DNA of 64,000 bases from Alkalihalobacterium alkalinitrilicum. Its GTDB lineage: Bacteria; Bacillota; Bacilli; Bacillales; Bacillaceae_F. This document shows positions 33,998-57,897 of the stretch, in pieces. Position 1 is the first letter of the stretch, and each line of letters begins with the position of its first letter. The stretch spans positions 3,519,698-3,583,697 of the forward strand of contig NZ_KV917368.1 of NCBI RefSeq assembly GCF_002019605.1, given 5' to 3'. The notes beneath the pieces are model-generated. The model searched no databases, was not told where the DNA came from, and saw nothing but the letters and a program-made list of their open reading frames with translations. Position numbers and translations under genes: made by a program.

Positions 33998-34195
33998 AAA
34001 CCTACCTCCAAAATTAAGTTTCGTCTCCCTAAATATATCATTGTCCTAGAAATTTCACAAACGCAAAATGGTGTAAATGTTGTTCATAAATTGTGGTAAA
34101 ATATATACTCAATAAGTCTCATTAGAAGAACACGTTTTTGGCTAATAAAGGGAAATATTGATATATATGTTATTTTATTCCGCAACAACAGTAAT

Positions 34196-34384
34196 ACCCC
34201 CACTTTAGACTTGATGAAGCAAAGAAGGATAAGTGGGGATTAACTGCCAGTAAAGACAAAGTCAACACAGACTAAAGACGCCACGTCCTGCGGCAACGTC
34301 TGTGTGACCCAGATCGTGTGGGCCTCAACTAACCTTCAGTAGGGAAGAGGAAAACCCTCACTGATGGAAGTTCCACTTTATCTA
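34196..34384 (+). ncRNA. Structured RNA-like element, copy A
   Basis: A ~185-nt segment with several strong inverted repeats: CCCCACTT/AAGTGGGG (34198-34205 and 34231-34238), CACAGAC/GTCTGTG enclosing GCCACGTCCTGCGGC, and a terminal CAGTAGGG/CCCTCACTG hairpin with GAAGAGGAA in the loop. A related copy lies at 57673-57853 in the opposite orientation, with paired changes that keep the stems. It starts about 50 bases upstream of the metallo-beta-lactamase-fold gene. It may correspond to an already catalogued Bacillaceae RNA motif (Bacillaceae-1 is described as having RUCCU loops and lying near rRNA operons); I cannot confirm this. The transcribed strand is not certain. Confidence 0.65.
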
Positions 34385-51089: not shown

Positions 51090-51205
<116 letters not shown>

Positions 51206-51308
51206 CTTATAAAATGGTGATAAGCTTCGCATTTCTACGATGCTTATGATGGAGCGTCATTCTCTCAAAACTGGATAATGTACTAGAAGAATATCAACGC
51301 TTTATGTT

Positions 51309-56174
<4,866 letters not shown>

Positions 56175-56313
56175 AAAGTGTTTGATTAAGCTCATCGTCA
56201 CAAACGTGACGTTTTTAAAACTTTGACGAGATATCATGTATCTCTTTATTTCGCTTGGCTTTTTGTTCAGTTTTCAAAGAACTTTTTCGTCTCATCTTAA
56301 CGACGACTTATTA

Positions 56314-56736: not shown

Positions 56737-56865
56737 TATTTTCCACCTCTACCAATAAATTTAAGAGTCTGTTTTAAAATTGTTTTCTAAAACTTGTAAT
56801 TTTATTCATATCTTGTCCGTTATTGCATAGAGTTATTTTAGGGCATGGGACAAGGGAGGGGTAAA

Positions 56866-57624
56866 ATGAAGTTCTTTTTGGTGTGGAATGGAAAAAAAAT
56901 AAAGCAATTATCAATTATTATTGTTGCGGCCTTTTTTACCGCTGGACTATTGTTTGTCGAACGAAATGAATTAATGGTTTTTTCGACATCGGATGGACCT
57001 CAAGCGTTTCACAAAGCAAAAACCGATGATAAAGTGATGTCTCTAACTTTTAACATTAGTTGGGGTGATCAAAGAGCCTTACCAATTCTGGACATATTAA
57101 AAGATAAAAATGTTCAGGCTACTTTTTTTCTCTCAGGTGCATGGGCCGAACGTCACCCAGATACCGTCAAACGTATCGTTGAGGATGGACATGAAATTGG
57201 TAACCATGGTTATCAATATGAAAGCTACCCTTCTTGGGATGATGAAAAAATAAAAAAAGATATTCGAAGAGGAGATCAAGTTCTTACTGAACTAACGGAA
57301 AAAAAACCTACCTTATTGAGACCCCCACATGGACAGTTTGACAAACGCGTTCTTGGAATAGCTGACAAACTAGATTACTCCATTGTCCACTGGAGTGTTA
57401 ATACTAATGACTGGGAAAACCCTGGAGTGGACCAAATTGTCGATCAAACGCTAGAACAATCTAGTAAAGGAGATGTAATTCTATTTCATGCATCAGACTC
57501 CGTGAAACAAACTCATAAAGCATTACCTATCATTCTAGACCGCCTAAAAAGTAAAGGGTATCAGTTCACAACAGTAACTGAATTAATAGCTAGTACAACA
57601 ACTAAGAGTGAAGAAATTAAGTAG
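56866..57624 (+). CDS. pdaB: PdaB-type polysaccharide deacetylase
   Basis: Sporulation-specific deacetylase-family protein needed for spore cortex/late sporulation in B. subtilis. The 252-aa product has an N-terminal membrane anchor (LSIIIVAAFFTAGLLFV) and the NodB domain: LTFNISWGDQ in place of the usual TFDDG, GHEIGNHGYQY, LRPPHGQFD and ILFHASDSV. The usual second Asp of the metal motif is not conserved, as in other PdaB proteins. The ATG at 56866 follows AGGGAGGGG. Confidence 0.93.
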   Translation: MKFFLVWNGKKIKQLSIIIVAAFFTAGLLFVERNELMVFSTSDGPQAFHKAKTDDKVMSLTFNISWGDQRALPILDILKDKNVQATFFLSGAWAERHPDTVKRIVEDGHEIGNHGYQYESYPSWDDEKIKKDIRRGDQVLTELTEKKPTLLRPPHGQFDKRVLGIADKLDYSIVHWSVNTNDWENPGVDQIVDQTLEQSSKGDVILFHASDSVKQTHKALPIILDRLKSKGYQFTTVTELIASTTTKSEEIK

Positions 57625-57672: not shown

Positions 57673-57853
57673 GATAAAGCTAAACAACCAACAGTGAGGG
57701 TGTTCCTCTTCCCCCACTGTTGGTTAGTCGAGACCCACACGATGTAATGCAGGTCTCATAGATGTTGCCATAGGACGTGGCAATGTTCATTAAGACTGGC
57801 AACTTATTCCCAACTTAAGCTTCTTTAATTCCTCGAAGTCTTCAAGTTAGATG
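57673..57853 (-). ncRNA. Structured RNA-like element, copy B
   Basis: Reverse-oriented relative of the 34196-34384 element: read on the minus strand it has CTAACTT/AAGTTGG (57850-57844 with 57816-57810), TTGCCACGTCCTATGGCAA, ATCGTGTGGGTCTC and the terminal CAGTGGGGGAAGAGGAACAC/CCTCACTG hairpin. The stems differ in sequence from copy A but stay paired. It lies between pdaB and kbaA, close to the rRNA operon. Confidence 0.65.
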
Positions 57854-57897
57854 TTAACCGCCTGTTAATTCTGGAAAAATTATAGTTTTAATAAAAA

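Follow-up and report, generated by a model that had tools for sequence, protein, structure and literature searches.

Two structured stretches in the window

The window, that is, the whole stretch of 64,000 nucleotides analysed here, contains two structured stretches (copies A and B) on opposite strands about 23 kb apart, as the initial annotation had reported. Both had been placed correctly, if slightly short, and the boundaries used here are given in Table 1. The gene after copy A encodes, as had been read from the DNA, a metallo-beta-lactamase-fold protein (PF00753, 68 bits). Copy B, described as lying next to the rRNA operon, is near it, about 1.5 kb upstream of the 16S gene, but is not in the operon; an open reading frame (56845–57624) separates it from the 16S gene. 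The rRNA operon of the window (51090–56176) has a short 23S–5S spacer without a Bacillaceae-1 module.

The cmscan search of the window against Rfam gave matches to rRNA, tRNA and glmS and, besides these, only to Bacillaceae-1 (RF01690), which covers the core of copy A at 61.1 bits against a gathering cut-off of 35 bits. At that cut-off copy B was absent from the matches. A covariance model of the core (R1) was built from 35 cores in many contexts; in the window it found only copy A (70.1 bits, a score given by construction because A was included in the model) and copy B, which was not included (22.5 bits, E 0.0026 in 306,600 bases). The proposal that the element is the known Bacillaceae-1 motif thus holds by score for the core of A but not for B, which is a degraded relative of Bacillaceae-1 and not a member. 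The consensus of this motif, which we take to have RUCCU in both terminal loops, fits the first loop of A (GTCCT) and not the second (ATCGT), where most rows of our 38-copy alignment have TCGT, so that copy A is filed under Bacillaceae-1 by its Rfam score alone. A and B are members of one family: each aligns with 36 further copies from the same genome, B over most of its length.

Table 1. Features of copies A and B in the window and Bacillaceae-1 modules in the rRNA spacers of the genome
Feature	Position	Strand	Basis
Copy A, whole TTTAT-bounded repeat, 208 bp	34174..34381	+	alignment with 37 other copies including B; ends fit the family ends
Copy A, left TTTAT pentamer	34174..34178	+	sequence
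Copy A, hairpin 1 (CCCCCACTT / AAGTGGGG)	34197..34238	+	sequence; scored helix in both covariation sets
Copy A, Bacillaceae-1 module (RF01690), two hairpins, loops GTCCT then ATCGT	34256..34322	+	cmscan, 61.1 bits, gathering 35
Copy A, right-end hairpin (CCTTCAGTAGGG / CCCTCACTGATGG)	34333..34367	+	sequence; scored helix in both covariation sets
Copy A, right TTTAT pentamer	34377..34381	+	sequence
Copy B, degraded; right end GCTTTAT retained, left end decayed	about 57674..57879, boundary approximate	-	alignment, sequence
Copy B, degraded Bacillaceae-1 module	57734..57795	-	model R1, 22.5 bits, E 0.0026; under the Rfam cut-off
rRNA-spacer Bacillaceae-1 modules, 65 nt, identical-scoring (L039-L046)	G000 C1 3182898, 3358222, 3472624, 3512274, 3635858, 3642229, 3707821, 1856494	rRNA strand	

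Anatomy of the repeat

The family has the pattern TTTAT-CCCG...GTTTCAC-TTTAT and occurs in size classes near 54, 108, 158 and 215 bp. In the genome (G000), the right-end motif was found at 148 places with up to one mismatch and the left-end motif at 96 places with up to two, while the reversed patterns gave 3 and 1, respectively. The loci fetched held 81 copies bounded at both ends, 79 of which fell into four size classes (53–57 bp, 4 copies; 105–112 bp, 6; 137–172 bp, 19; 180–222 bp, 50), and two lay outside them.

Each repeat is laid out as a left stem, an inner hairpin and a right-end hairpin, with no gene inside. The 158-bp class has no Bacillaceae-1 module, the unit being about 150 bp without the module and about 215 bp with it. 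The two shortest classes resemble, by eye, deletions between GTGGGGG/CCCCCAC arms. Pairing of the left end TTTATCCC with an internal stretch, GGGGATAAA, is possible in two copies. This might be a guide-like contact, which we take as a lead only, as the inner stretch varies in other genera.

Spread across genomes

With one mismatch allowed, the left-end motif was present in 87 of 397 genomes of the order, from 48 of 135 genera, and the reversed pattern in 18 genomes, once each. Of ten loci read, five (L142, L144, L147, L149 and L150) seem to be chance hits in sequence of other kinds, and genomes with a single match therefore mean little. Fifteen genomes, meanwhile, have ten or more left-end matches, up to 92.

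The scan of named genomes yielded at least 120 stretches with the left-end motif. Among the 80 matches listed were Lysinibacillus, Sporosarcina, Psychrobacillus, Rummeliibacillus, Peribacillus, Cytobacillus, Neobacillus, Domibacillus, Oceanobacillus, Terrilactibacillus, Planococcus and others. Of 129 left ends in the 120 stretches examined, 104 have a right end no more than 420 nt away; the paired copies show similar size classes, and longer ones occur too. TTTAT is present on the right in 97 of these 104, which is not an independent count, as the right-end pattern itself included TTTAT (with two mismatches permitted overall) and TTTAT on the left was a requirement of the scan.

Several matches lie in records of other kinds. 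One (L247, NZ_JAPVBI010000007.1) is on a 4.6-kb contig filed as Modestobacter and may be contamination; four (L229, L263, L279 and L296) come from contigs labelled Paenibacillus sp. FJAT-29882. The 361-kb plasmid pNY3A, recorded under Klebsiella grimontii (L422, CP079755.1, 217561–225624), contains part of the repeat with about 80% identity over 64 bp; the other matches in the plasmid collection were only in Bacillaceae, and mislabelling or a mixed assembly is possible. In four viral contigs (L432, L434, L437 and L438) there is almost the same 100-bp copy, each time at an equal distance of about 535 nt into the stretch, and these four copies probably sit in one shared flank. Phage records gave no match to the repeat.

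The Bacillaceae-1 module in and outside the repeat

The initial annotation had counted two copies, which is far too few: RF01690 alone has 109 matches in this genome at E<=0.1, of which 98, copy A among them, exceed the curated cut-off and 11 fall below it. Even this is a lower bound, as 150 of 544 first-look candidates were scored. RF01690 was found in 22 of 41 genomes (this one included) with 1 to 93 matches each; three genomes of the same genus have 6, 18 and 13 matches, and three genomes of another genus of the family have none.

The sequence was compared for 99 of the 109 core places, eight of them linked to rRNA and the other 91 not. The eight rRNA-linked cores are identical and sit between the 23S and 5S genes, all eight on the rRNA strand. 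Directly downstream of one 5S gene in this genome there is a match to group II intron D1-D4 (L040, 327–499). Of the 91 non-rRNA cores, 76 have the right end GAAGTTTCACTTTAT in the next 150 nt at up to two mismatches, compared with none for the reversed motif and none for the same motif upstream; at up to four mismatches the numbers are 86, 7 and 5.

The module was then searched for in 150 sources (149 loci and the window; L247 was left out) and found 62 times, two of these in the window. Of the 60 finds outside the window, 53 were assigned by script to TTTAT repeats, four by the left end alone (that of L370 doubtful) and two by the right end alone, and seven lie outside repeats. Among the 53 assigned modules of other genomes, 31 are reversed and 22 forward, and 13 of the forward ones lie inside the loop of the right-end hairpin; as at least seven of the 31 reversed modules come from one genome (G084), the events are not independent. 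Some copies (L328, L329 and L236) carry two modules, one reversed and one forward. Across genera, the module thus occupies three or more positions in the repeat, forward or reversed. Besides the rRNA spacers, the core also occurs outside TTTAT repeats in further repeated contexts, such as the flanks that L013 and L033 of G037 have in common. In this setting Bacillaceae-1 appears to be an exchangeable module that the repeat carries, and not an independent RNA gene. Automatic annotation would label the 98 places in this genome as genes for sRNAs; leaving aside the eight in rRNA spacers, the majority are probably copies of a single mobile repeat.

Another module, about 120 nt long (GGTGAGATACAGTGAAACTT...ACCAATCGGGTTCGTAGTGTCGC...GCGACACTAGAACGGGAC), was seen at a Bacillaceae-1-like place inside TTTAT repeats in L263, L279, L258, L276, L313, L318 and L331. 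Its form in L279 has a strong fold (-48.7 kcal/mol), and it had no Rfam match at the gathering cut-off. The reverse-strand loops CAGGACG/ACAGGATG resemble the sequence that we take to be the CsrA consensus, which would suit a CsrA sponge; CsrA is present in 39 of 41 relatives, whatever their number of motifs.

Orientation of the copies and replication

The gene dnaA of this genome lies at 3.751 Mb on the minus strand. Of the non-rRNA cores, 89 of 101 fit a two-arm orientation with respect to replication, and none of 300 shuffles was as good. Of the 81 bounded copies, 74 fit when the terminus is set by eye at 1.24 Mb. Copy B follows the bias, and copy A is an exception. Flanking genes were called by a simple open reading frame rule for 13 copies at which only lagging-strand genes were seen (three of them with a gene seen on one side only), and 12 of the 13 still follow replication and not the neighbouring genes.

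In other genomes the result was different. The bias is weak in G084, where 42 of the 57 listed places (of 115) fit the split and 18 of 500 shuffles were as good, and there is none in G383 (59 of 92 fit; 81 of 300 shuffles as good). Replication bias is therefore strong in this genome and not general, and its use as a universal sign of single-strand transposition was dropped because of G383.

Two-sided changes in the stems

Between the two copies, the stem CCCACTT/AAGTGGG of A, which is CTAACTT/AAGTTGG in B, had been read as changing on both sides together. One of its changes is indeed two-sided (C-G to A-T), whereas the other is single-sided (C-G to T.G), and two copies alone prove little on covariation. 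The stems were examined in larger sets, in which conserved, co-varying stems proved to be real. For 38 copies of this genome (B included) on a fixed structure, 30 cells were two-sided compared with 7.7 in shuffles (none of 500 as high), although two-sided changes in 13 of 44 pairs were not above two slid controls (14 each). For 46 copies of 145–162 bp, of which 42 came from the named-genome scan, three from this genome and one from G243, and among which one copy (L267) holds a reversed module, two-sided changes were seen in 16 of 30 pairs and 78 cells compared with 8.3 and 20.6 in shuffles (0 of 500), and slid controls reached at most 10 pairs and 18 cells.

Next, G.T and A.C mismatches were compared. 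RNAalifold found no pairs in the re-aligned set A1, and automatic structures lean to G.T whichever strand is folded; we therefore relied on counts with fixed structures and recounted the riboswitch control on pairs found from both strands. The G.T to A.C ratio was 53:54 and 32:32 over the whole element and 14:21 in the 35 cores across contexts. In thirty SAM riboswitches it was 17:3 on 25 pairs found from either strand and 23:3 with the sense-strand structure. As the two mismatch types are about equal in the repeat, unlike in the SAM control, the strong covariation does not show selection on RNA at the A and B loci, as had been proposed for them. The stems are conserved and the mismatches balanced, which indicates that individual copies drift after insertion. 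A mobile DNA hairpin can thus yield strong covariation, which calls for caution in RNA discovery from repeats.

Bacillaceae-1 could still be a genuine small RNA or cis element that was spread by the repeat, with every copy a functional RNA. The two-sided changes suit this, as do the listing of RF01690 as an sRNA in Rfam, the "Y" under "RNA?" in Table 1 of PMC2864571, the strand shared by the eight spacer copies and the slight lean of the 91 cores of this genome to G.T (72:51). We nevertheless consider it unlikely, since G.T is not in excess in the other three counts, the module is reversed in the majority of assigned cases, its orientation in this genome is independent of the neighbouring genes and size classes without the module exist. 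The outcome that the initial annotation had named as speaking against RNA selection, membership of a mobile-element family, was also largely found, in that A and B are members of a dispersed TTTAT-bounded repeat.

The covariation might also stem from mutation. Palindromes of the kind found in these stems are prone to strand switching, and template switching at hairpins during replication, which perfects imperfect palindromes, would leave G.T and A.C balanced as observed. As the main source of the stem changes this seems equally unlikely to us, because three helices are kept over many genera, each with different two-sided changes, a pattern consistent with selection on copies of equal mobility. 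If the structure is maintained by selection, this acts at the level of the moving copies, with template switching as a second possible source.

Empty sites and the TTTAT pentamer

For the analysis of insertion sites, the joined flanks of six sites (nine were prepared) were queried against three genomes of the same genus (G001, G002 and G003). The junction was crossed by alignments for L122 in all three genomes and, in a single genome each, for L131 and L116; no such match was obtained in these genomes for the remaining three sites. At L122 (G000, 186650), a copy of the repeat interrupts an open reading frame, and the insertion is missing in all three relatives. The frame is open in G001 and G002, and G003 carries a frame-broken remnant. 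The empty site has a single TTTAT in G001, TATAT in G002 and a gapped alignment in G003. The junctions of L131 and L116 have gaps and are not base-exact, so that L122 is the only clean empty site, with TTTAT itself there only in G001.

TTTAT occupies 0.3% of positions in the window. Copy A has it at both ends and copy B on the right only. Among 56 copies of this genome with near-perfect inner ends, TTTAT is present on the left in 47, on the right in 39 and on both sides in 32; for the 81 bounded copies pentamer counts are biased upwards, because the filter on total mismatches includes the pentamers. In G343 (L163), three tandem copies have single TTTATs in common.

An identical pentamer on both sides, with one in the empty site of G001, is what a miniature element moved by a DDE transposase with a 5-bp target duplication would leave. 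However, one or both pentamers deviate in 24 of the 56 copies, and in none of these 24 is the same deviating pentamer found on both sides, indicating that the pentamer is a fixed site and not a random duplication. Moreover, a scan of two copies found no inverted repeat joining both termini, and we regard such an element as improbable. In G272 (L157, 172 onward), a repeat of the 54-bp type is broken off right before a gene that resembles, by eye, an IS110-family transposase; IS110-like elements may insert into the hairpins of the repeat.

Search for the moving enzyme

An autonomous relative of the repeat was sought in the named-genome stretches, at least 120 in number, and in 20 viral-contig stretches, and none was found in either. 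Of 30 fetched Y1-transposase loci, 12 were examined; the pair of family ends was not present around any of them, apart from one right-end-like match with three mismatches. IS200/IS605-type copies with compared boundaries have ends that differ from those of the repeat. For this genome's own IS605-type element (L372–L375), insertion is after TTTAAC or a similar sequence, and the end reads GTTCAC, close to the GTTTCAC of the repeat; GTTTCACTTTAT is present in the right flank of L374.

Movement by a RAYT-like Y1 protein, as known for REP elements, is highly improbable in spite of weaker-scoring Y1 proteins (open frames of about 180–290 aa) in many of 33 genomes searched: the left-end motif has 88 matches in G084 and 92 in G341, yet each of these genomes shows just two full-scoring IS200-type Y1 genes and no RAYT-like proteins.

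Our leading guess, although less likely than not, is that a Y1-type transposase moves the repeat in trans. It fits the TTTAT target known from passages of PMC4227781, the subterminal palindromes and the replication bias in this genome. It fits poorly with the presence of TTTAT on both sides, with G383, where there is no bias, and with the examined loci, among which there was no Y1 gene with these ends.

Interpretation

Taken together, copies A and B are probably worn insertions of a short, non-autonomous, TTTAT-specific mobile repeat that carries Bacillaceae-1 as an exchangeable module. The family has a high copy number, fixed ends, one site both occupied and empty, modular sizes, conserved hairpins and a module in both directions. 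An enzyme supplied in trans would recognise the top-strand hairpins and insert the unit at TTTAT; most likely it would be a single-strand (HUH/Y1-like) transposase or another TTTAT-specific recombinase. The structure would be kept because only well-folding copies move, while inserted copies would then decay freely, and Bacillaceae-1 would be carried along as an exchangeable hairpin module. Against this stand the search for an autonomous relative, which found none, the TTTAT on both sides, the replication bias, weak in G084 and absent in G383, the single clean empty site and the slight G.T lean (72:51) in the cores of this genome.

A wider reading, possible but doubtful, is that Bacillaceae-1 is a transferable DNA hairpin cassette and no RNA gene. 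It would have been taken up by TTTAT repeats on at least three occasions (between hairpins in forward and in reversed orientation, and forward in the loop of the right hairpin) as well as by rRNA spacers and other repeats. The TTTAT repeat would then be a modular mobile element of the single-strand type, distributed over Bacillaceae and Planococcaceae, which gathers such cassettes through a trans-acting enzyme. If the modular reading is true, the size series (about 54, 108, 158, 215 and 280 bp, with and without modules) is a natural one for finding the parts essential for movement and the enzyme.

Comparison with known systems

The closest catalogued relative is Bacillaceae-1 RNA (RF01690), shared through the module of copy A and the other places above the cut-off, and known from rRNA spacers as well. 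Rfam describes a 67-nt sRNA gene, whereas here it is an optional module in a larger TTTAT repeat and occurs in either orientation. One study of Bacillaceae-1 reportedly separated rRNA-linked hits from intergenic ones. Our searches of the open-access literature listed no earlier work that sets Bacillaceae-1 inside a TTTAT repeat.

REP sequences, which are associated with RAYT proteins, are likewise dispersed hairpin repeats without a gene of their own, but genomes with many copies of the present repeat, such as G084 and G341, are without RAYT-like proteins. With IS200/IS605-type elements, the repeat has in common the subterminal palindromes and a T-rich pentamer target: the group A IStrons of this type insert downstream of TTGAT, ATTAT or TTTAT, and the target is not duplicated, according to passages of PMC4227781. 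It differs from them in having no gene, in TTTAT on both sides and in that no Y1 gene with its ends was found among the loci examined.

The bcr1–bcr3 elements of the Bacillus cereus group are, in the parts of PMC6542083 and PMC3446304 that describe them, short intergenic MITE-like repeats of high copy number whose mobility is tied to TTTAT, and bcr1 is present on plasmids of the group. Compared by description, the present repeat resembles them in TTTAT at both ends (in copy A and in 32 of 56 well-bounded copies) and in high copy number. Plasmid records of the B. cereus group gave no match to it at E<=0.01 or E<=0.001, and the present family differs in that it occurs in many other genera. Thus, the core was already catalogued and TTTAT repeats were familiar from the bcr elements; new are the link of Bacillaceae-1 to a TTTAT repeat, the breadth of the family and the change of place and strand of the module within it.
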